64,000 bases of DNA from Arthrobacter sp. FB24 (GTDB lineage: Bacteria > Actinomycetota > Actinomycetes > Actinomycetales > Micrococcaceae), in assembly GCF_000196235.1 (NCBI RefSeq), contig NC_008541.1, positions 1,984,001-2,048,000 on the forward strand, given 5' to 3'. The position numbers and the translations under genes were made by a program. The notes beneath the pieces were generated by a model. The model was not told the DNA's origin. It was given only the letters and a program-made list of their open reading frames with translations, and made no database searches. Shown piece after piece: positions 162 to 10,604 of this stretch (within the stretch, counting starts at the first letter, position 1; each line of letters opens with the position of its first letter).

Positions 162-617
162 ATGTCCATTGCATCCTCAGGAGTCGAAGGCTCGGACCGT
201 GTTCCATCCGGGAACACGTCCTTCGGCGACCCTCCGGAGCAGGGTACGGACGCGCAGGCCGATCCGCCGTGGCTGGATCCCGAGGTCCTCCTGGACATGG
301 AGGACCAGTTAGGCGGCCCGGCAATCCCTTTGGCTTTTGCGCGTGACTATGCCCGGCTGTGGGACCAGCGGCAACGTGCCTTGGTGGTCGCAATAGAGGA
401 CGAGGACCGCGACGCCGCCCTTGATGCGGTGATCAGCGTGAAAGTCTCCTCGGCCATGGTGGGAGGGGCGCGGATGTCCCGGCTCGCGGAGTCCCTGGAG
501 ACTTGCATCCGAAACGGGGACTTCCCCGCGGGACGGGCGCTGCTGGACACGTTTGCCGGCTACGGCGCGGCCACAGTGAACGAATTACGGACGCGCTACA
601 TCACGAAGGCAATCTAG
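162..617 (+). CDS. HPt-like protein lacking the phospho-acceptor histidine
   Basis: A 151-residue soluble protein. The first 40 residues are polar and low in complexity; residues 45-150 are helical and resemble a histidine-phosphotransfer (HPt) four-helix bundle. The usual motif HxLKGSS is present only as ISVKVSS followed by AMVGG, so the phosphorylatable His is replaced by Ile while the Lys and Ser-Ser are kept. The fold is therefore likely HPt, but phosphotransfer through that site is not possible. It lies next to an OmpR-type regulator encoded on the opposite strand, convergent with only 26 bases between them. A binding or inhibitory role towards a kinase or receiver is plausible. The start ATG has only a weak upstream purine run (TTAGGGA). 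Confidence 0.75.
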   Translation: MSIASSGVEGSDRVPSGNTSFGDPPEQGTDAQADPPWLDPEVLLDMEDQLGGPAIPLAFARDYARLWDQRQRALVVAIEDEDRDAALDAVISVKVSSAMVGGARMSRLAESLETCIRNGDFPAGRALLDTFAGYGAATVNELRTRYITKAI

Positions 618-643
618 CTGGAAGCTGCCCGCCAGGGAGAGGA

Positions 644-1426
644 CTATGACGGTCCGGCGGTCCGTTCCGCTCTTTCCGGCGCCAGCCGGTACCCCACACC
701 GCGGACAGTCTGCAGCCAGCGTGGCTCTTCCGCGTTGTCCCGGAGTTTGCGGCGAAGATTGCCGATATGGACCTCAACCGCCCGCTCATCGGCTTCGCTG
801 ATATAGGCATCCTCGCTGTAGTAGTCACCACGCACAACCCGAACCAGTTCAGACCTGGACCGGACTGCTCCGGCTCCGCGCATTAACTCAAGAAGGAGGT
901 CAAATTCGCTGCGGGTCAACTCAACAGGGGCCCCGTCAAGGGCCGCTGTCCGGCTCGCGGCGTTCAGCGCGAGGCTATTATGCCGTAGCGTGCCCGGCGC
1001 TTCGAAAGCCGCGGGCCGGTCCGCCGATGCGGCCGGCTCGCCGCCGAAGGTGTCCTGCCGTGGACGGCGCATCAGGGCCGAGATCCTGGCACGAAGCTCC
1101 AGCGGGCGGAACGGTTTGGTGATGTAGTCATCGGCTCCGCCATGAAGGGCGGTCAACAGGTCAGGCTCGTCAGTCCTGCCGGTGAGCATCACGACATACG
1201 CGGTGCTGAACTGCCGGATCCGCCGCAAAACCTCGAACCCGTCAATATCCGGCAGGCCGATATCCAGCGTCACGACATTGGGCTGGTTATCCCTCACAAC
1301 GCCCACCCCCTCCCGGCCGGAGGAGGCACTGTGGACAACAAATCCCGCTTGAAGGAAAACAGCATGCAATAAATTGCGTACGTCGGCGTCGTCCTCAATG
1401 ACGACAGCCACGCCTAAATCGCTCAC
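644..1426 (-). CDS. OmpR/PhoB-family response regulator (intact paralog)
   Basis: A 260-residue two-component regulator with an N-terminal receiver (about residues 1-120) and a C-terminal winged helix ending in the typical RRKLRDN and GVGYRLAP motifs. The receiver shows the acidic pair EDD, the phosphorylation Asp in DIGLPDIDG, the conserved Thr in MLTGRTDEP and Lys in ITKPFRP. I place the start at GTG 1426 because the paralog at 10323 starts with ATG at exactly the same residue (SDLGVAVVIED). The frame remains open upstream to 1537, but that extension is not shared. The cognate kinase is probably the membrane kinase at 2469-4250. It is nearly a duplicate of the regulator interrupted by the IS21 element. 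Confidence 0.9.
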   Translation of the reverse strand: MSDLGVAVVIEDDADVRNLLHAVFLQAGFVVHSASSGREGVGVVRDNQPNVVTLDIGLPDIDGFEVLRRIRQFSTAYVVMLTGRTDEPDLLTALHGGADDYITKPFRPLELRARISALMRRPRQDTFGGEPAASADRPAAFEAPGTLRHNSLALNAASRTAALDGAPVELTRSEFDLLLELMRGAGAVRSRSELVRVVRGDYYSEDAYISEADERAVEVHIGNLRRKLRDNAEEPRWLQTVRGVGYRLAPERAERTAGPS

Positions 1427-1493
1427 GGCGACCACCCCTATTCGCCCGGGCATGCTGCGGCGGCCCAGCACCGCCGCGGTATTCATGCCGCAT

Positions 1494-1506
1494 TTCCAAG
1501 CTACAA
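1494..1506 (-). promoter_or_regulatory. Shared 13-mer upstream of response regulator 1
   Basis: The 13-mer TTCCAAGCTACAA (read on the plus strand) lies 68 bases upstream of the regulator start at 1426. The identical 13-mer lies 68 bases upstream of the paralogous regulator start at 10323. Read in the gene direction it is TTGTAGCTTGGAA, so it could be a promoter -35 region or an autoregulatory site. The function is inferred only from conserved position. Confidence 0.4.
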
Positions 1507-1860
1507 GGAACGAATCCTTTTGCCTATTTTTATTCATTTATGAAAAAAGCCTTATAGGCCAACTCAGACAGCCCCGCCGTAACTCCACAGCGAAGGCTCA
1601 CAGGTGAAGACCACGCGGCTGGAAGCCTCAATCTTCCCGCCAGCCCGCGGCGATACACGCCGCGGTCCTGTTGCTGCGCCGGTCCGCCGCCGGAGAACGT
1701 CACCTGCCTCGTGAGTTCAGGACCCGGAACCGCCCCGGATTTCTTACCTGCAATCGTGAGCAAATATTGAGCCTTTTGCGCGGTCATCCTGAGCTTGACT
1801 GTGTAGTGGCGCCGTTTCCCGCTACGATCAGCGCGTTCTTCCAATTTGAAAGGTTCCCTT

Positions 1861-1995
1861 GTGGATTTTCTCCGCTACGTCACCGCTCTTGCCATATTCA
1901 TGGCCGTATCGCTCATCGTGGCGGTATGCGCCCATGCGATGATTCTGCGACATTCAAAGCGGAAAGCCGCGGCCTCCTCCGGCATCGGGAAATAG
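1861..1995 (+). CDS. Small single-pass membrane protein (44 aa)
   Basis: A short frame starting with GTG 1861, preceded by GAAAGG seven bases upstream. The 44-residue product has one strongly hydrophobic segment (about residues 7-29) followed by a basic tail, RHSKRK. That charge pattern suggests an N-out, C-in membrane microprotein. It is followed after nine bases by a second membrane microprotein in the same orientation. The two sit between a response regulator and a histidine kinase, so a sensory accessory role is possible. I do not recognise the family. Confidence 0.5.
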   Translation: MDFLRYVTALAIFMAVSLIVAVCAHAMILRHSKRKAAASSGIGK

Positions 1996-2004
1996 GACCC
2001 CGCC

Positions 2005-2124
2005 GTGCCTTATATCGACATCAATCCGCACCGCAAGGGCCCGCGATGGCCTGCATACCTTGCGCTGGCGGCCCTGGCTGTTGTTACAGCCGTTGTAGTA
2101 GTGGCCGCCCTGTCCGCGCGGTAG
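2005..2124 (+). CDS. Small membrane protein (39 aa), second of a tandem pair
   Basis: GTG 2005 is preceded by TAGGAC at a suitable distance and opens a 39-residue frame. The N-terminal 14 residues are polar and basic (PHRKGPRW), followed by an Ala/Val/Leu-rich transmembrane helix running almost to the end. It lies nine bases after the preceding microprotein and is probably co-transcribed with it. No family is recognised. Support comes from the ribosome binding site, the membrane profile and the tandem arrangement. Confidence 0.45.
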   Translation: MPYIDINPHRKGPRWPAYLALAALAVVTAVVVVAALSAR

Positions 2125-2468
2125 CGGGGCATCAGGAGAGGTCCCCGACCGGTACGAGCCCGCTAGCGGCCAGCTTGAGGTCCCTGCCTAATTGCAGGGC
2201 CGGGGAAAGCACCCGCGTGCCTTGCAACCCAGCCAGGCTGTGGTCGCCAGGTCGACCGGCAGGCGGTCACCGACTCGTTGGGGGAGACAGTTCTCCTCCG
2301 CCTTGGCGGCGGTGGCACCTTTCTCCTTACTAACGGCACCGCCTTGCCTTTCGACTCCGCTTTCCGGGTCTCATGCGCTGAGGCCCCTCGCTGTGCACGA
2401 CTGCGGTCCGGCCAGCTGTCCCTTTGACGGGACTGCAGCGTGCTGGGTTCCGCAAGGTTCCGCCCGGA
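2125..2468. other. Intergenic stretch without a convincing gene
   Basis: About 340 bases between the second microprotein and the 3' end of the histidine kinase gene. It contains GC-rich imperfect inverted repeats around 2240-2275, but no clear T-tailed terminator and no riboswitch consensus that I recognise. Confidence 0.4.
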
Positions 2469-4250
2469 TCAATGTGCTCGTTCGGTGTCCACATTGGCTG
2501 GTCCCTCCGCGGGACACTGTTGAGGATCCTGGTCTTGGCGTGCCCTGGGAAGGCTCACGGTGAATGTGCTGCCCAGGTCTGGTTTGCTGGTTACAGTGGC
2601 GCTGCCGCCGTGGTTTTCCACGATTCGTTTCACGATGCCCAGTCCCAACCCAACGCCGGGCATTGCAGATTCCCGAACGCGACTGGACCTGTAGTAACGG
2701 GTGAAGATGTGGGGGAGGTCTTGTTCGCTGATGCCCATGCCTGTGTCGGTGACTGAAAAGCAGGCCTGGTCGTTGGTCTCCCAGGCCCGAACGGTCACGA
2801 CATCCCCTGGCTGGGAGTACTTAATGGCGTTCGTCAGGAGGTTGTCCAAAACCTGGGCAAGCCTTTCCGGGTCAGCGGTGATCCAGAAAGCCCGGGAGAC
2901 TTCATTCACGATTGTCACCCACCGGCCGTCAGCCCGCGGCTTCGCTGAGACAACACACTTTCGAACCAGATCCCCCAGATCCATTCTTTGGGGGTGGACG
3001 CCCATTGAATCTGACGAGACGGTGAGCAGCCCCGACACCAGGTTCAGCAGCTTCTCAGCATTATTTTGGGCCATCCCCAGAAACAGTTCATGCTGCCCCG
3101 CGGTTTCCTCCTCGCCATCCAGCACCAGATCCAGGTAGCCGAGTATGGACATCAGCGGAGTCCGGAATTCATGCGAAATATTGGCCACGAAGTCGTCCTT
3201 GAGGGCAAGCGCGTTCACCAGGTCAGTAACGTCGCCGAATGCCAGGACTGATCCCGCGAAGTTTCCGTCCCTGTCCTTCATTGCCCGTGCCGTCGAGGAC
3301 AGAACACGCTGATTTGGCGGGGCACCGACGCGGATGAGGTAGTCCGAAAAGGACTGGCCAAGGGTCGCGCGCGCGACGGGACGGTACTCAGCGGGAACGG
3401 GGGTAATACCGTCGTTTGCAAGGATATTCAGATCCGGCTCGGCGGTTTCGGGCTCGCCCGTCGGGGCGGCCAGCGAGCGGTTGCGGCGATGCTGCTCGTT
3501 CATCAAAATGTCGCGGCCCGCGGCATCCACGGCATGTACGCCCACCCCCACCGTTTCCAGCATGGTGTCCAACAACCGCTGCCGTTCCAGGCTTACCTCA
3601 TAAGACCTGCGAAGCTCTGCGTCCTTCGCCTTCAGCCGTGCTTCCTGACTGGCGATGCTGCTCACCAATATATGGACCGCCAAGGCAATGACCGTCATGA
3701 TCGCCGGGAGCAGGAAGGGACGCACGACATCGGCCGGGGTGGCGGAAACTCCGACAAGCAGCGGCACCGCGACGACCATGACCGCTCCCACGGCACTTAG
3801 GAGCACACCGTTTCTGCCTAAGGCGGCTGCCAGCCAGATAACCGGAAACACCAGAAGAAGCCCCAGGCTTGTGACGGAGTCGGCAGCGACCTCACGCGCC
3901 AGTGCAACGACCACAAAATCCAGCAGCGGCACAACCACGAAGCTTCCCGGGGGCAGGAGATTCCACGGAAGGAAGGCACACAGGGCCAGAATGGCCAGGG
4001 CCAGGAATAAAGCCGACCGAAACGAAGTAGTGCCGAGAATGTGCGGGCTAACGACCGCCAGAATGGCAGTGACCAACAGGAGCGCCACAGTCAGCGGAAG
4101 TTGGCTGAGCAGCATGCTTCGCCGCTGGGTAAGGTCACCGAAGTATTTATTTCGCACGTGATGGGCAAGATCCGTGGTGAGAGACTCTTCCTGTGCTCCC
4201 GCTGCAATGTTGGTCGATGTTCCTGTTCCCATGATGCCCCCCGGCTTCAA
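2469..4250 (-). CDS. Membrane-bound PAS sensor histidine kinase
   Basis: A 593-residue sensor kinase. Residues 48-200 form about six hydrophobic segments, followed by a short coiled linker, a PAS-like domain (about 225-345), a HisKA dimerisation domain with the H-box SHEFRTP (His360) and an HATPase_c domain. The N-box reads NLLTNAIKYS, the G1 box DTGMGIS and the G2 box GLGLGIV, so all catalytic elements are present. The gene reads in the same direction as the interrupted response regulator upstream (remnant at 4649-4867) and the intact regulator downstream (644-1426). Before the IS21 insertion it was probably the distal gene of a regulator-kinase pair. The insertion may have changed its expression. 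Confidence 0.92.
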   Translation of the reverse strand: MKPGGIMGTGTSTNIAAGAQEESLTTDLAHHVRNKYFGDLTQRRSMLLSQLPLTVALLLVTAILAVVSPHILGTTSFRSALFLALAILALCAFLPWNLLPPGSFVVVPLLDFVVVALAREVAADSVTSLGLLLVFPVIWLAAALGRNGVLLSAVGAVMVVAVPLLVGVSATPADVVRPFLLPAIMTVIALAVHILVSSIASQEARLKAKDAELRRSYEVSLERQRLLDTMLETVGVGVHAVDAAGRDILMNEQHRRNRSLAAPTGEPETAEPDLNILANDGITPVPAEYRPVARATLGQSFSDYLIRVGAPPNQRVLSSTARAMKDRDGNFAGSVLAFGDVTDLVNALALKDDFVANISHEFRTPLMSILGYLDLVLDGEEETAGQHELFLGMAQNNAEKLLNLVSGLLTVSSDSMGVHPQRMDLGDLVRKCVVSAKPRADGRWVTIVNEVSRAFWITADPERLAQVLDNLLTNAIKYSQPGDVVTVRAWETNDQACFSVTDTGMGISEQDLPHIFTRYYRSSRVRESAMPGVGLGLGIVKRIVENHGGSATVTSKPDLGSTFTVSLPRARQDQDPQQCPAEGPANVDTERAH

Positions 4251-4648
4251 CCTGACCTTTGCCGCGAATCCCGCGGATGATCAAAACTTCGTCCCACTGC
4301 TCACTCTATTCACAGCCAGCCACATGGCAAGACCGGAACTCAACCCACACACGTCCGCGCACACTGACGCGGTGTGGCGACGAACCTACTGTTCCGACAT
4401 AAATCCAATGTTGACGACGTAGTACATGGCGAAGCCGGCTTGGTGGACCAAACTGACGAACGTCACCATGCGGTACCTGGAGCGACCTGCCGGACCGTGC
4501 CACCCGACCTGATACCCGGGATACTCACGGCCAGCCCCATGATCGGTGGCGACCGGAGGATGGGGTCCGTGCAGGCGCCGGTATAGAATTCCAGCTCAGC
4601 CCCATGCTTGATGCCGGCATTTTCAAATGGGCACCGCCGGTCACCGGT
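4251..4648. other. Intergenic spacer between kinase and interrupted regulator
   Basis: About 400 bases separating the start of the kinase gene from the 3' end of the interrupted regulator. No reading frame here has family character. It should hold any private promoter of the kinase, but I cannot point to one with confidence. Confidence 0.35.
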
Positions 4649-4867
4649 TTATGACCGGCCGTCCCGCCGCGCCGCGTCGGGCGCCAGGCGGTACCCGATG
4701 CCACGGACGGTTTGCAGCCACCGGGGCGACTCCGGGTCTTCGCGGAGCTTCCGGCGTAGATTTCCGATGTGCACCTCTACGGCGCGCTGGTCTGAATCAC
4801 TGATGTAGGTGTCCTGGCTGTAGAAATCACCCCGTACCACACGTACGAGTTCTGTTCTTGAACGCAC
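4649..4867 (-). pseudogene. C-terminal fragment of response regulator 2, cut off by the IS21 element
   Basis: This encodes the winged-helix end of an OmpR-family regulator, closely matching the C-terminus of the regulator at 644-1426 (SRTELVRVVRGDF, RRKLREDP, GIGYRLAP). The reading frame continues a few codons into the transposon end, where a TTG could act as an accidental start. The rest of the gene lies at 9757-10323 on the far side of the element. Joining the two flanks and removing one CGCAC copy restores the continuous reading GAVRSRTEL. The gene is therefore inactivated by insertion within an Arg codon region at the start of the DNA-binding domain. Confidence 0.9.
4863..4867. repeat. 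5-bp target-site duplication, left copy
   Basis: The pentamer CGCAC immediately precedes the TGA end of the element and is repeated at 9752-9756 after the other end. Because the flanks reconstitute an intact regulator gene once one copy is removed, this is a true target duplication rather than chance. Confidence 0.85.
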
Positions 4868-4881
4868 TGATTGTGTCAACG

Positions 4882-4920
4882 TGATCGGAGCCCACTAGGA
4901 CGGCCCGAACGGTACCCACC
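4882..4920. repeat. Left terminal inverted repeat of the IS21-type element
   Basis: This 39-bp block is the exact reverse complement of 9699-9737. The outer 14 bases (4868-4881) match the other end only partly, keeping TGA and TG.CA positions. No second internal copy was found on this side. Confidence 0.9.
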
Positions 4921-5060
4921 CGTCGGACGTCCGGGGATGATGTTGTGAGGGTGTCTAGGGGTTCTTGGCGTGGTTTCTGGGTCTGTGAAAACACTGCCGC
5001 GGGTTGGGACGATACCCGGGGTCCCGGTTGTTGGAAGCTGGCGTCTGGCGGAGTAGTGCG

Positions 5061-5453
5061 TCAGAGGTAGCTGCAGATTTGTTCGGGATCGCAGCTTGCG
5101 TCGGTCCCGGACGCGGCAGTGGCGTGAAGGCCGGCGACGATGGATCGCAGCGCCATTAGTTCAGAAATCTGGTGGTCCAGTTCGGCCAGCTGGTTGGAGA
5201 GAAGGTCTTGGACGTGGGCGCAGGGGGCTTCTCCGGCGTCACGGAGGCTAAGAATTTCGCGTATTTGGGTCAGGGCGAGGCCTGCGGCCCGTCCGCGGCG
5301 GATGAATTCGAGCCTGGCCACGGAGTCGTCATGGTAGTCCCGGTAGCCGTTAGAGGATCTTTTCGCTGCCGGGAGAAGCCCGCTGTCCTCGTAGAAACGC
5401 AGCGTCTTGGTTGTCATCCCTGCCGCTGCCGCGGCCTCACCGATACGCATCAT
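5061..5453 (-). CDS. merR: MerR-family heavy-metal-responsive regulator of the mer operon
   Basis: About 130 residues from ATG 5453; a second ATG follows at once. The N-terminal winged helix begins MRIGEAAAAAGMTTKTLRFYE, the MerR signature, followed by the long dimerisation helix. Cysteines at APCAHV, DASC and EQIC match the layout of metal-binding members: one Cys at the start of the dimer helix and two in the C-terminal loop. Divergent transcription from merA across a 20-bp-spacer promoter is the classical arrangement. It probably represses and, with Hg(II), activates merA. Specificity for Hg rather than another soft metal is inferred from the neighbour. The frame is open further upstream to 5558, but that extension would cover the operator and lacks MerR character. 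Confidence 0.85.
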   Translation of the reverse strand: MMRIGEAAAAAGMTTKTLRFYEDSGLLPAAKRSSNGYRDYHDDSVARLEFIRRGRAAGLALTQIREILSLRDAGEAPCAHVQDLLSNQLAELDHQISELMALRSIVAGLHATAASGTDASCDPEQICSYL

Positions 5454-5491
5454 GAACTCATTTCTTAGCAGGCGGCCAGGACGGCGATTCC

Positions 5492-5523
5492 TTGACATTC
5501 CAGTGTAGGGGAAGGTTGAGAAT
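5492..5523 (+). promoter_or_regulatory. MerR-type operator/promoter of merA
   Basis: TTGACA (5492-5497) is followed after 20 bp by GAGAAT (5518-5523). The over-long spacer contains an imperfect dyad with TTCC and GGGGAAGG arms, typical of promoters that MerR proteins activate by twisting DNA. It lies between the divergent merR and merA starts. Confidence 0.7.
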
Positions 5524-5622
5524 GGGATGCAGAGCTGGTCTTCGGTTGAAGGCTGCACATGGCGGTCGGTTGAGCAACAGGTGTGCTGGCGGCTGCTTCC
5601 CTTCCATCTTCAGGAGTCCCTC

Positions 5623-7065
5623 GTGTCGGCAGCATCTTTCGATTATGACCTGGCCATTATCGGTTCCGGCGGGGCTGCTTTCGCTGCGGCCATCCGGGCA
5701 ACCAGCCGTGGCAAGCGGGTGTTGATGGTGGAGCGCAGCACTGTGGGAGGCACGTGCGTGAACACGGGCTGCATCCCGTCCAAGGCCCTGCTGGCCGCCG
5801 CGGAAGCCCGCCATGTCGCCCTCGATGCTTCCGGACGGTTCCCCGGTATCAGCACCTCCGCAGAGCCGGTGGATATGCCCGAACTGGTCGCCGGGAAGCG
5901 CTCACTGGTCGAATCCATGCGGTCAGAGAAGTATGTGGATCTCGCCGCGGGCTATGGATGGAACCTGCAGCGGGGGACGGCGGTGTTCGCCGGAACCGCA
6001 GCCGCACCGGTTTTGAACATCACCGCCCCGGGCGGAACCACCGAGACAGTCAGCGCGGAACACTACCTGGTCGCGACCGGCTCCACCCCCTGGATCCCTG
6101 AAGTGCCGGGAATGGACGAGGTGGATTATCTGACGTCCACGAGTGCGATGGAGCTGCAGGACGTTCCCGCTTCGATGCTGGTGGTGGGCGGCGGGTATGT
6201 GGCGCTGGAGCAGGCGCAGCTTTTCGCCCGGCTCGGCACGGAGGTGACCATCCTGGTCCGGTCCAAGCTCGCCTCGGCCGAAGAGCCTGAAGCCGGGCAT
6301 GCCCTCGCCGGTGTCTTCGCCGATGAGGGTATCCGGGTCGTCCGTCGAGCGACAGCGTCCTCGGTCCGGACCGATGAGGTGTCGGGGGACGTGGTCGTGG
6401 ATGCTTCCGTCTCAGGAGGAAACGAGGAATTCAGGGCCGCGCGCCTGCTCATGGCAACAGGCCGGCGCCCGGTCACGGAGGATTTGAACCTTTGCATGGT
6501 CGGCGTTGAAACCGGGGACCGCGGGGAAGTCCTGGTCGACGGGAGCCTTCGCAGTACTAATCCGAGGATCTGGGCCGCGGGTGATGTGACGGGTCACCCG
6601 GAGTTCGTTTATGTCGCCGCCGCGCACGGGGCCCTGATGGTGGAGAACGCCTTTGAGGGTGCCGGGCGTGAGGTCGATTACCGGCACCTGCCCCGGGTCA
6701 CGTTTACCAGCCCTGCCCTGGCCGCTGTCGGGATGACGGACAAGGAAGCGAACCAGGCAGGGATCCGGTGCATGTGCCGGGTTCTGCCGCTCAAATTTAT
6801 CCCTCGCGCGCTGGTGAACCGTGATACCCGCGGCTTCATCAAGATCGTTGCCGACGCGGACACGGGTCGGATTGTAGGGATCACTGTCGTGGGTAAGGAC
6901 GCCGGGGACATCGCCGCCGCAGGGATTTACATTCTGGAGGCCGGGATGACCGTTGATCAGGTCGCGAATCTCTGGAGCCCCTATCTGACCATGGCCGAAG
7001 GCATCAAGATAGCAGCCCAGTCCTTCACTACTGACGTCTCCAAACTGTCCTGTTGCGCGGCATGA
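5623..7065 (+). CDS. merA: Mercuric reductase
   Basis: A flavoprotein disulfide reductase that reduces Hg(II) to volatile Hg(0) with NADPH in the cytoplasm. The GTG at 5623 is preceded by AGGAG (5612-5616), giving 480 residues. The frame extends upstream to 5527 but would run through the promoter. An FAD-binding GSGGAAFAAA lies at residues 14-23, and the redox pair is in GGTCVNTGCIPSK (Cys45/Cys50). A second Rossmann motif, GGGYVALEQAQ, and the FAD motif WAAGDV follow. The C-terminal vicinal pair SCCAA (Cys477/478) is the diagnostic MerA feature that hands Hg to the active site. There is no N-terminal NmerA metal-binding domain. No merT, merP or merB lies in the element, so uptake must be non-specific or encoded elsewhere. 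Confidence 0.93.
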   Translation: MSAASFDYDLAIIGSGGAAFAAAIRATSRGKRVLMVERSTVGGTCVNTGCIPSKALLAAAEARHVALDASGRFPGISTSAEPVDMPELVAGKRSLVESMRSEKYVDLAAGYGWNLQRGTAVFAGTAAAPVLNITAPGGTTETVSAEHYLVATGSTPWIPEVPGMDEVDYLTSTSAMELQDVPASMLVVGGGYVALEQAQLFARLGTEVTILVRSKLASAEEPEAGHALAGVFADEGIRVVRRATASSVRTDEVSGDVVVDASVSGGNEEFRAARLLMATGRRPVTEDLNLCMVGVETGDRGEVLVDGSLRSTNPRIWAAGDVTGHPEFVYVAAAHGALMVENAFEGAGREVDYRHLPRVTFTSPALAAVGMTDKEANQAGIRCMCRVLPLKFIPRALVNRDTRGFIKIVADADTGRIVGITVVGKDAGDIAAAGIYILEAGMTVDQVANLWSPYLTMAEGIKIAAQSFTTDVSKLSCCAA

Positions 7066-7117
7066 AGTGGTCAACGACAACCTATGTGTTCGTGGGGCGG
7101 GCGGCCGCGGCTACCTT

Positions 7118-7933
7118 TTAGTGCGCGTTCCTTGTCAGGCTGTGGGCGAGGCGGTAGGAATCGGTGCCGGTTTCGATGATGGTGCCGTTGAACGTCAGCC
7201 GGTCAACGATCGCGGCGCAGAGGCGCGGGTCGGTGAATGTCTTGGTCCAGCCGGAGAACGACTCGTTGGAAGCGATGGCGATGGAGTTCTTCTCTTCGCG
7301 TTCGGTGAGGACCTGGAAGAGGAGTTCGGCGCCGCGCCGGTCCAGTTCCATATAGCCGAGCTCGTCAATGCAGAGCAGGTCCACTCGGCCGTATCTGGCG
7401 ATGGTCTTGGCGAGGACTTTGTCGTCGGCGGCTTCGACGAGTTCGTTCACGAGCCGGGTGGCCAAAGTGTATTTGACCCGGTATCCCTTCTCCGCCGCGG
7501 CGGTGCCCAGCCCGATAAGCAGGTGGGATTTGCCGGTTCCGGAGTCCCCGATCAGGCATAGCGGTGCACCTTTTCGAATCCATTCGCCGGTAGCGAGGGT
7601 ATGGATGGTAGCGGGGTTGATGTTCGTGTTCGCGTCGAAATCGAAATCACCGAGCCATTTATCCCGGGGAAAGTTCGCGGCTTTGACGCGTCGGATTGAG
7701 GAGCGACGGTCCCGGTCATCGCATTCGGCCAGCAGCAGCTCGGCCAGGAAGCCTTGGTAAGAGAGTTGTTCCTTCCCCGCGACGGTCAGAGCTTCGTCCA
7801 GAACCGCCCGGATGGTGGGCAGGCGCAATCGGCGGCATGCTTGGTCCACGGCCGCGACCGCGGCCTGCTCAGTCAGACCGCGGCGCCGTCGCAGGGTTGG
7901 GGTGATGGTGGTGGCCGGTGCGGTGGGGCTCAT
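7118..7933 (-). CDS. istB: IS21-family helper ATPase IstB
   Basis: A 271-residue AAA+ ATPase related to DnaC. Walker A reads GDSGTGKSHL and Walker B reads LLCIDELGYM, with the usual basic N-terminal region. It acts with the IstA transposase in target selection and strand transfer. Its ATG overlaps the istA stop in an ATGA arrangement, indicating translational coupling. The length is normal for the family, and no frameshift is seen. Confidence 0.95.
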   Translation of the reverse strand: MSPTAPATTITPTLRRRRGLTEQAAVAAVDQACRRLRLPTIRAVLDEALTVAGKEQLSYQGFLAELLLAECDDRDRRSSIRRVKAANFPRDKWLGDFDFDANTNINPATIHTLATGEWIRKGAPLCLIGDSGTGKSHLLIGLGTAAAEKGYRVKYTLATRLVNELVEAADDKVLAKTIARYGRVDLLCIDELGYMELDRRGAELLFQVLTEREEKNSIAIASNESFSGWTKTFTDPRLCAAIVDRLTFNGTIIETGTDSYRLAHSLTRNAH

Positions 7934-9606
7934 GAGATGTTTTCCTTCGACGCGGTTCCTGCGGAGTGTTCGGTGCGTTTGGCCAGCAGCTCGTCATAGG
8001 CGCTGATCGCCGGGAGCGGCCGCTTGTCTGGAGGGAGCCCGGCGATGACCGCCGCCGGGTCCATCAGCCGGCGCTGGGTCAGGCTGACAACTCGTTGCAC
8101 TTTCGCTTCAGCATGAGCACCGCGATGACGGTCAGGACGGGACCCACCAGCAGGGATGCTGGAGGCATGTCGGCGGCCTTCAACCGCCACGACGTCGGCA
8201 CTGACGGCACCTACTCCAAGGGCTGCGGTGATCCCTGCCTCGATGTCTTCGGCTTCCATCGATCGGTGCAGCAGCAGGACGTCAATCAGTTCACGGGTCC
8301 CCGCGGCATCACCGTTGACCCTGCGCGAGGCAGACCAGAAGGCGTCATGGGCGCTGGTGAAAGCACCCGACTCCCGCGCCCTGGCCAAAGCAGTGGAACC
8401 AGGCAAAGCGCCGGGCTTGGTCTTGAGGACCTCCAGATAATGGTCCAACTGGACCGACTGCCCGCCCTTGGCAATAATCCGCTGGTGCCGGGCCGCCACC
8501 GCGCGGCCGTCGAACACCACAACTTCGGATGCCCGCAATGAAACCCGGACCCGCCGACCGATGAACCGTGCTGGCACCGAGTACTTCACCATCCGCACGG
8601 TGATCATTGAGGACCGGTCCACTCTCGGGTTCAACACCAGACCGGGATCGAACTCGTCGGCCGGCAACGGTGCCAGGAACGGGCGCTCGGCGGCGAAGTC
8701 CTGGCCGATAGTGCGGATCCTGCCATCAATCCGCCGCTGATCGTCTTGAACCTCCCGGCTCCGGATCCAGTCGTTGAGCTCATCAAGGGACCTCGCCACG
8801 GGCATCGGGGTCAGCCGGTTGCGGCGGAACCAGCCCACCTCGCCCTCGACCCCGCCTTTCTCGTGAGCGCCGGCAAGACCTGGCTGGCAATAAAAGGCAT
8901 CAAATCCATAGAACGAGCGAAACAACACCCACCGGTCATTCTCCAGGCGGTTCCGCCCCTGACCGAACACCACGGCCCTGACGGCACTGGTGAGGTTGTC
9001 ATAGCGGATATGTTTGACCGGCACGCCGCCGATCTCGTTGAACGCCTCGACGTGGCCTTCCAGAAACGCTTCCTGGGCCTGGGTGGGGTAAATCCGGTGG
9101 ATGGCTTTGCCGGAGTGAGAAAGCCGGAAGATGAACATGTGGCATTTCGTCTTTACCCCGTCCAGCACGATCCAGACTTCACCGAAGTCCACTTCCGCTT
9201 CCGCGCCCGGGGCGTGCTCCTGAGGAACAAATACCTCAACCCGGCGGCCGGCCTCCACATCGATCTGCGCCCGGCGGACCCGAACGTAGTCACGCACCGT
9301 CGAATACGACAACTCGTCCGCTCCATGCTCCTCGATGAGCCGGGCAAGAATCCTCCGGGCAGTGTGACGCTGCTTCCTCGGCGCCGTCGTGTCCTCGACG
9401 AGCATGGCGTCGATCGTCGGTTTATAAGGATCAAGCCGCGGCGAGGACCGTACAGGAGTTTTACGCTCTGGCGGGACCGGGGAACTTAACGCCTTACGCA
9501 CGGTTTTCCGCGCCACCTGGTGCCTGCGGGCAAGCTCCCGGATTGACGCGCCCTCCACCCGGGCATCCCTCCGAATCTGCGCGAACAACTCCACTCTTGA
9601 CCCCAT
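7930..9606 (-). CDS. istA: IS21-family transposase IstA
   Basis: A 558-residue DDE transposase. An N-terminal helix-turn-helix (SIRELARRHQVARKTVRKAL, about residues 19-38) is followed by an rve integrase core. Candidate catalytic residues are Asp in VDFGEVW, Asp in IRYDNLTSAV and Glu in EKGGVEGEVGW. A C-terminal beta-rich region carries the usual VPARFIGRRVRV-type segment. The gene begins about 145 bases inside the right end of the element and is intact, so the element may still be mobile. Confidence 0.95.
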   Translation of the reverse strand: MGSRVELFAQIRRDARVEGASIRELARRHQVARKTVRKALSSPVPPERKTPVRSSPRLDPYKPTIDAMLVEDTTAPRKQRHTARRILARLIEEHGADELSYSTVRDYVRVRRAQIDVEAGRRVEVFVPQEHAPGAEAEVDFGEVWIVLDGVKTKCHMFIFRLSHSGKAIHRIYPTQAQEAFLEGHVEAFNEIGGVPVKHIRYDNLTSAVRAVVFGQGRNRLENDRWVLFRSFYGFDAFYCQPGLAGAHEKGGVEGEVGWFRRNRLTPMPVARSLDELNDWIRSREVQDDQRRIDGRIRTIGQDFAAERPFLAPLPADEFDPGLVLNPRVDRSSMITVRMVKYSVPARFIGRRVRVSLRASEVVVFDGRAVAARHQRIIAKGGQSVQLDHYLEVLKTKPGALPGSTALARARESGAFTSAHDAFWSASRRVNGDAAGTRELIDVLLLHRSMEAEDIEAGITAALGVGAVSADVVAVEGRRHASSIPAGGSRPDRHRGAHAEAKVQRVVSLTQRRLMDPAAVIAGLPPDKRPLPAISAYDELLAKRTEHSAGTASKENIS

Positions 9607-9654
9607 CCCGGCCCTCCCGTCGTCGATCCAACACTGGATGGATCAACGTTCACA

Positions 9655-9685
9655 GGTGGGTACCATTCAAGCCGTCATTAGGTTC
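9655..9685. repeat. Internal subterminal repeat at the right end (second transposase-binding site)
   Basis: A diverged direct copy of the right terminal repeat (GGTGGGTACC followed by a similar GCCGTC...TAGG stretch), offset by 44 bp from the terminal copy at 9699. IS21 elements commonly have multiple subterminal repeats bound by IstA. The left end appears to lack this second copy. Confidence 0.65.
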
Positions 9686-9698
9686 GGCATGTCCGGCT

Positions 9699-9737
9699 GG
9701 TGGGTACCGTTCGGGCCGTCCTAGTGGGCTCCGATCA
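9699..9737. repeat. Right terminal inverted repeat of the IS21-type element
   Basis: An exact 39-bp reverse complement of the left repeat at 4882-4920. It starts GGTGGGTACC and ends GGCTCCGATCA on the plus strand. Confidence 0.9.
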
Positions 9738-10323
9738 GACTGTCATACTCACGCACCGCCCCGGCGGCGCACAGGAGGTCGTGTAGTAGATCAAACTCGC
9801 TTCGCGTGAGCTCCAGCGCTTCCCCTGCAAGCTCGGCCGTCCGGCTTTTGGAGTTTAATGACAGCCCGTTGTGCTGCAGGACGCCCTCGCGCCGGTCGGC
9901 AACGGTTGAATGTGCCGGTGCTGCCGAAGTTGGCTCCTTGCCGGTCGGGTTGTGCCGCGGCCGGCGCATCATGGCTGCGATCCGGGCCCGCACTTCCCGG
10001 GGGCGGAACGGTTTGGTGATGTAGTCGTCCGCTCCGGCATGCAGTGCGGTCAACACGTCCGGCTCCTCGGTCCTGCCGGTAAGCATCATCACGTAGGCGT
10101 GGCTGAACTGGCGGATGCGCCGTAGAACTTCAAAGCCGTCGATGTCCGGCAGGCCAACATCCAATGTCACGATATTCGCCTGCTTATCCCTAACGACTTC
10201 CACTCCCTCGCGGCCGCTCGAGGCCGAGTGCACCTCGAACCCTGCCTGAAGGAGCACCGCCTCCAGAAGGTTCCGCATATCATCGTCGTCTTCAATGACG
10301 ACAGCCACGCCTAAATCACTCAT
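9721..10323 (-). pseudogene. N-terminal fragment of response regulator 2 (receiver domain), truncated by the IS21 element
   Basis: From ATG 10323, preceded by GTGGGGG, the frame encodes a complete receiver domain (EDDDD, DVGLPDIDG, TGRTEEP, ITKPFRP), the linker and the first strands of the winged helix. After GAV it runs into the transposon end and stops at 9721. The missing 73 codons survive at 4649-4867. The product would be a receiver with a broken DNA-binding domain (200 residues). It could still accept phosphate and so compete with the intact paralog, but it cannot be a normal transcription factor. Confidence 0.9.
9752..9756. repeat. 5-bp target-site duplication, right copy
   Basis: CGCAC directly after the element's TCA end; it matches 4863-4867. 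Confidence 0.85.
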
Positions 10324-10390
10324 GGCCCCCACTTTGTTACGGGGCCAATTTTCCCTATCAGCCCAGTACCGACAAGAAATCAACCTCATC

Positions 10391-10403
10391 TTCCAAGCTA
10401 CAA
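10391..10403 (-). promoter_or_regulatory. Shared 13-mer upstream of response regulator 2
   Basis: TTCCAAGCTACAA, identical to 1494-1506 and at the same 68-base distance from its regulator start. It is a probable conserved promoter or autoregulatory element of the duplicated regulators. Confidence 0.4.
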
Positions 10404-10604
10404 CGCCATACCGGCTTTGTGTAACCTTTCCCCGCATCGCAGAATGAACATTGTTCAAATATGTTTACGCTGTCACCGCCAACATCCTGCGGGGTGTTGC
10501 TTGAAACGCCGCTCGAGTCGTACAGGCTGCGGTCGGCTTTTCGCATGGCGAAGCAGATGATTTATCCCATTATCAACCGGCATTGAGCTGAAGATTTATT
10601 CTGT

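Follow-up and report, generated by a model that had tools for sequence, protein, structure and literature searches.

A passenger-carrying IS21-family element with a divergent merR-merA pair in Arthrobacter sp. FB24, and the variable passenger slot of its actinobacterial relatives

A 64,000-nucleotide stretch of Arthrobacter sp. FB24 DNA (NC_008541.1, positions 1,984,001 to 2,048,000; here called the window, whose numbering is used throughout) holds an element of 4,884 bp with TG...CA tips, starting with TGA and finishing with TCA (4868-9751; Table 1). Inside its ends lie istA and istB, with istB directly downstream of istA and overlapping it by 4 bp, and divergent merR-type and merA genes separated by a 169-bp spacer. 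Joining the two flanks minus one copy of CGCAC gives a single open response-regulator frame of 308 residues; the element was therefore cleanly inserted into a response-regulator gene. The parts of the split gene lie at 4600-4867 and 9757-10458, and a similar intact response-regulator gene is found at 644-1537.

Table 1. Features of the FB24 element and its insertion site (window positions).
Feature	Position	Strand	Remarks
Target duplication CGCAC, left copy	4863..4867	.	read from sequence
Whole element	4868..9751	.	same bounds in full-length plasmid and chromosome copies
Distal end, downstream of istB	4868..4920	+	inner 39 bp (4882-4920) identical to other end
MerR-family metal regulator, 130 amino acids	5061..5453	-	Pfam MerR_1 and MerR-DNA-bind; Cys78, Cys121, Cys127
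MerR-type operator/promoter (putative)	5492..5523	+	TTGACA, 20-bp spacer, GAGAAT, over TTCC-N8-GGAA dyad; read from sequence
merA, mercuric reductase core, 480 amino acids	5623..7065	+	NCBIfam TIGR02053, 552.6 bits (curated cut-off 454.45); Cys45/Cys50, Cys477-Cys478
istB, AAA+ helper ATPase, 271 amino acids	7118..7933	-	NCBIfam NF038214, 252.7 bits (cut-off 200); Walker A residues 129-136
istA, DDE transposase, 558 amino acids	7930..9606	-	NCBIfam NF033546, 243 bits (cut-off 160); Asp140, Asp203, Glu254
Inner copy of end motif	9655..9676	+	direct repeat D3, 86%; 44 bp inside outer motif, istA side
Proximal end, upstream of istA	9699..9751	-	inner 39 bp, 9699-9737
Target duplication CGCAC, right copy	9752..9756	.	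read from sequence

It had been predicted from the DNA letters alone that 39-bp perfect terminal inverted repeats and a CGCAC target duplication surround an intact istA-istB pair. The duplication is present, and the pair is intact. The 39 bases are identical but not terminal: they occupy element positions 15-53, 14 bp in from the tips, and the outermost 14 bp of the two ends match in 8 places, so that the full inverted repeat is imperfect.

IS21-family elements have TG...CA tips and repeated motifs within their ends, and they duplicate 4-8 bp of target. The ends described here have the same tips and repeated inner motifs, with duplications within this range, and both IstA and IstB score above the cut-offs of their IS21 models. 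Alignment of IstA to IS5376 transposase structures places its three acidic residues listed in Table 1, which we take to be catalytic, in corresponding columns. The element resembles IS21, IS5376 and ISPve1 in the order and overlap of istA and istB, the combination of a DDE transposase with an AAA+ helper, the TG...CA tips, the repeated end motif and the short target duplication. It departs from the family in carrying a regulated pair of passenger genes after istB, inside the distal end, and in its length of 4.9 kb; IS21 itself is about 2.1 kb. A composite transposon was considered and rejected: there is a single istA-istB pair, the flanks are the halves of the response-regulator gene, and the other matches in the genome are partial, with no second full copy.

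The merA product exceeds the curated cut-off for mercuric reductase, carries the GTCVNTGCIPSK motif and the C-terminal Cys-Cys (both cysteine pairs are present), and has mercuric reductases as its five best PDB matches; no HMA domain was detected in a Pfam scan. A long promoter spacer over a dyad, as in the putative operator, is typical of the MerR family. The regulator falls below the NCBIfam cut-offs for MerR, CueR, ZntR and CadR-PbrR, its best curated score being 97.1 with the zinc regulator model (cut-off 143). The predicted divergent merR-operator-merA module does lie within the same ends, but the mercury-specific identity of its merR stays below cut-off, and the naming of this gene as a mercury sensor is not established for that reason.

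Copies of the whole element were found elsewhere. A plasmid search (46 records matched) revealed the complete element at 99.9-100% identity on four plasmid records; a fifth plasmid, pAD51, has the left 87% of the element, with the remainder behind an insert. Among 206 genomes of the genus, full-length copies at about 100% identity occur in eight, FB24 included (two copies in G050), a 92% copy in G205, and partial or split copies in G116, G030, G171 and G122. After removal of duplicates between collections, 15 distinct mer insertions with both ends remained, FB24 included; one contig consists of the element alone. An exact target duplication of 5-7 bp was observed in 13 of the 14 flanked insertions, and L012 matches at four of five bases. 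Near-identical copies with different duplications exclude a chance explanation. Positions 4868-9751 are one mobile unit, with istA-istB and merR-merA inside common ends, and its passenger genes move together within one pair of insertion sequence (IS) ends, as in a transporter IS (tIS). The copies that the original prediction had proposed to look for, with the same ends and cargo and different duplications, thus exist, and its single-unit IS21-family transposon with a mer cargo is borne out.

More distant copies were also detected. L133 (IstA 96%, MerA 92%) and L050 (IstA 99%, MerA 97%) are diverged and intact. G222, from another genus, retains the left end, merR, merA (MerA 88.5%) and a broken istB, and the 8.4 kb read contains nothing matching IstA; G128, arranged in the same way, has MerA at 80% beside an istB fragment. 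This arrangement indicates that the mer-ist association is old. Of 395 sampled genomes of the family, 35 match the mer half at E <= 1e-200, mostly in merA alone, and seven match from the left end onward, six at 97-100% and G222 at 84%. Of 396 sampled genomes of the order, only FB24 and G110, which belong to the same genus, gave matches at E <= 1e-240.

Some copies are damaged. istA is interrupted at different points in two mer elements, by an insert of about 4.3 kb in L016 on pAD51 (about 579-4907) and by one of about 3.8 kb in L151 (5984-9750); the pAD51 insert has two genes annotated as integrases. On plasmid pCZY (L015, 7001-7696) only the left end and a merR-type gene are present, adjoining a Fic-family gene, and this locus is probably a truncated remnant of a mer element.

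The diverged copies differ at the DNA level by about 6% in istA and istB and about 9% in merA and merR. Ratios of nonsynonymous to synonymous divergence (dN/dS) were calculated by Nei-Gojobori counts with our own script. For the FB24 copy versus L133 and L150, they were 0.15 and 0.16 for merA, 0.25 and 0.22 for merR, 0.10 and 0.11 for istA, and 0.06 and 0.02 for istB, with dS between 0.16 and 0.28. The mer cargo and the ist machinery have thus aged together under purifying selection. In an IstA tree of 52 rows, built by a quick method with support from the SH-like approximate likelihood ratio test (SH-aLRT) only, the five mer rows form one clade (SH-aLRT 100). Its neighbours carry a 570-bp slot, RHS repeats, two slots of about 480-490 bp, a slot with an extracytoplasmic function (ECF) sigma factor gene and a 797-bp slot, the slot being the DNA between istB and the distal end. 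The simplest reading of this topology would be a single gain of mer in the clade and frequent passenger change between near relatives.

The slot was surveyed in relatives of the FB24 IstA in Actinobacteria. The 112 loci comprised the FB24 element, 11 early mer copies (L010-L013, L017-L023), 48 loci from an IstA scan of genome contigs, 40 regions picked among the longer istA-istB matches listed from the 206 genus genomes, ten plasmid loci picked from 60 listed IstA matches, and L152 and L162. Removal of 13 loci without usable ends and of duplicates left 78 distinct elements, the 15 mer insertions and 63 others. In 56 of these 63 the slot is longer than 450 bp, or in 55 of 61 when L115 and L141, which lie at the threshold and are treated as doubtful, are left out. 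The median of the 63 is 1,299 bp; one slot measures at most 150 bp (L137 on Rhodococcus erythropolis pBD2, the sole plain element), six measure 151-450 bp, 18 measure 451-1000 bp and 38 exceed 1000 bp. The premise that IS21 elements carry only IstA and IstB fails for this clade.

The borders of the slot are well marked. In the 63 non-mer elements, IstB alignments break off between residues 262 and 270 (of 271), which places one border at the last istB codons. On the distal side, most of the compared pairs share roughly the final 50-60 bp (L069 and L082 share 124 bp), and the DNA between the two borders is unrelated between lineages of the clade. With ends chosen blind to the flanks, by a score that favours a TTGACA tip motif learned from earlier tables, an exact duplication of at least 5 bp was found in 58 of the 72 loci with flanks, a set that includes mer and had itself been retained by a score counting the duplication; the proportion is 54 of 67 without the five loci passing solely through that score (L071, L083, L115, L119, L120). 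Shifted comparisons used as a control gave none in 1,416.

By DNA similarity, with plasmid loci left out, the slots fall into 41 groups, one of which is mer, or 38 without the low-scoring L114-L116; some groups have short pieces in common. A Pfam family above cut-off was detected in 14 of 50 chosen slot open reading frames (ORFs). Regulators are represented by ECF sigma factors (L054, L119), an ANTAR-GAF protein (L066), a LysR-type (L073) and a MerR-type protein (L085). Other passengers include TetR with a CPBP/Rce1-like protein (L071), RHS repeats (L087), an amino-acid permease (L110), GT87 with DUF6355 (L113), a GGDEF protein (L117) and a thioredoxin-like protein with MauE (L120). An identical 3,911-bp element with annotated trpS (tryptophanyl-tRNA ligase) is present on two plasmids of one Microbacterium in different flanks (L138; L152, 4354-8264), and no exact target duplication was found at either copy. 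The possibility that the passengers are anti-phage systems was rejected: PADLOC, run on 37 proteins (35 slot ORFs and the FB24 MerR and MerA), gave four families with one member each and no defence enrichment.

A possible route of passenger entry is visible in four slots (L117, L111, L087, L057), each of which has kept an old distal end, oriented like the present one. The clearest case involves L118, which has a 471-bp slot and its own duplication, and L117, in which 465 bp match 467 of the 471 bp of the L118 slot (88.7%); this stretch finishes in a degraded end and is followed by a GGDEF gene and a fresh end. The L117 target duplication is GTCATCG. These two seem to be a near before/after pair, with the GGDEF gene gained beyond the old, degraded distal end. 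The L111 inner end is 96% identical over 50 bp to the L131 tip and outscores the outer end, yet the duplication fits the outer one. In L087 the duplication also sits at the outer end, and L057 is a contig without flanks. A BLAST scan of 69 slots (1e-4) detected the inner ends of L117 and L111, and five rounds of shuffled slots produced no match. A BLAST match in L124 adjoins that element's own tip and was not counted as an old inner end. These cases suggest that passengers may enter through the use of a farther distal end: the transposase would skip the old distal end and use a second copy of it farther downstream, after which the inner end would decay.

We consider it very probable that the FB24 element is a passenger-carrying IS21-family transposon, or tIS. 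IstA and IstB would move it as in other IS21 elements, a circle being copied out and then pasted in. The MerR-family protein would sense a thiol-binding metal and switch on merA, and MerA would reduce Hg(II). We also lean, with more reserve, to a wider view in which this actinobacterial IS21 clade would be a general carrier of small genes. Almost every member would hold a passenger directly behind istB, passengers would be added or replaced serially via a farther distal end, and the mer transposon would be a successful outcome of this process, spread among the chromosomes and conjugative plasmids of soil Micrococcaceae.

Several observations weigh against these interpretations. The split copy on pAD51 was not counted in the 15, and its two outer borders differ in sequence. 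In the survey, the ends were unusable in 13 of the 112 loci (L051, L053, L075, L084, L088, L089, L091, L092, L093, L114, L116, L136, L142); the duplication was absent at the blind ends of 14 of the 72 flanked loci (L012, L054, L067, L078, L081, L085, L100, L111, L115, L124, L131, L141 and both trpS copies, L138 and L152), and the retention score noted above favoured its presence. No Pfam family exceeded the cut-off in 36 of the 50 slot ORFs scanned, and slot length alone is therefore no proof of a passenger gene. As to capture, the inner ends of L087 and L057 came from looser end-matching without a shuffled control, and an inner end is kept by only four elements. The mer element showed none, and the route is thus not shown for mer itself. 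As to mercury, the regulator scores 77 bits with the mercury MerR model TIGR02051 (cut-off 150.85), and no mer transporter gene is present among the genes of the element. The FB24 genome paper lists other metals, and 'mercur' is absent from its main text (PMC3910542).

The strongest alternative concerns the capture route: passengers may instead enter the slot by homologous or illegitimate recombination near the istB end. The absence of an old inner end in 57 of 61 non-mer elements (the 63 less L115 and L141), at the sensitivity used, fits this explanation, which we regard as a serious possibility; the four slots with a same-orientation inner distal end, one of them with a near before-state relative, argue for the use of a farther distal end.

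It is also conceivable, but rather unlikely in our view, that the unit is real and its role is not mercury resistance, either because another metal is sensed or because a merA lacking a transporter would confer no useful resistance. Apart from the missing transporter gene, this would agree with the regulator scores, which are better with zinc, copper and cadmium/lead models than with the MerR model, all being below cut-off. Arthrobacter sp. Rue61a, carrying merA and a MerR-family gene, has been reported to be highly Hg-sensitive (PMC3534580). A merA on a Rue61a plasmid, beside a MerR-family gene and presumably the one meant there, is 71% identical to that of the FB24 element. On the other side stand the MerA score above its curated cut-off, both cysteine pairs, and dN/dS values of merA and merR well below 1. 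Mercury resistance of the FB24 element is a prediction made from MerA.

It is very improbable that the mer genes do not belong to the unit and instead form a separate mobile element, or were captured by chance, within a normal IS21 element: mer modules without an istA/istB match do occur in the genus (MerA 72-79%, five stretches of 6.5-10.4 kb each), but among 25 of 30 inverted pairs listed none made a convincing second set of ends for 4921-7117 (a short duplication is possible there), the same segment is present in every full-length copy found, the mer and ist genes diverge jointly, and the mer elements are one IstA clade. The original prediction had named relatives that always lack 4921-7117, together with a nested mer element having its own ends, as findings that would speak against it; relatives do not as a rule lack a segment in this place, and the search for convincing inner ends around the mer genes failed.

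As a passenger-carrying IS21-family unit, the element can be compared with known mercury transposons. In Tn5053/Tn402, a DDE transposase and its AAA+ partner mobilize a mer cargo, and these elements have tniA-tniB-tniQ-tniR and 25-bp ends. The FB24 element shares the mer cargo and a transposase of this kind with an AAA+ partner. Its genes include no tniQ or tniR, and its ends and transposase are of IS21 type; membership of Tn5053/Tn402 was rejected because the four proteins match IS21, MerA and MerR families, a judgement made on the proteins. Tn21 and Tn501 (Tn3 family) likewise carry a mer cargo in a unit transposon; unlike them, the FB24 element is without tnpA and tnpR and has only the divergent merR-merA pair, with no merT, merP or merD. 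Because IS21 elements generally pass for bare insertion sequences, passengers behind istB are easy to overlook.

Several IS families are stated to include passenger-carrying members, tIS, in a passage of PMC7986276, and the concept is also described in PMC9330008. The FB24 element resembles a tIS in being a single IS-type unit with passenger genes. It differs in that the IS21 family is unnamed in that passage of PMC7986276, and in that most members of the present clade examined have a segment whose content changes. No description of an IS21 element with a mer cargo or of a passenger-carrying IS21 element was found in the literature, ISfinder and most subscription journals being outside the search, nor in passages of PMC9330008, PMC7371123, PMC11092175, PMC7986276, PMC8261052, PMC3534580 and PMC3910542. 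The passenger-carrying IS is thus a known kind, and the IS21 clade and the mer element were not found described. If the proposed reading is true, a simple IS would repeatedly become a gene-carrying transposon by a traceable step, the gain of a second distal end, which the L117/L118 pair makes testable. For soil actinobacteria, the element would also be a compact carrier of a mercury-reductase gene pair that is found on chromosomes and conjugative plasmids.

Related genes and elements were also identified elsewhere in FB24. A merA-like gene with 71% DNA identity is located on each of the three plasmids (C1-C3; L006, L005, L004); the C3 copy (L149) lies next to a merR-type gene, and the stretch read around it gave no match to istA-istB. 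A second passenger-carrying IS21 element (L112; G000:C4:483791-494712, 310-4841) has the duplication TTTTGGC and a 1,912-bp slot. This slot contains a 355-amino-acid ORF without a Pfam match, and its DNA resembles in parts the RHS slot of L087.

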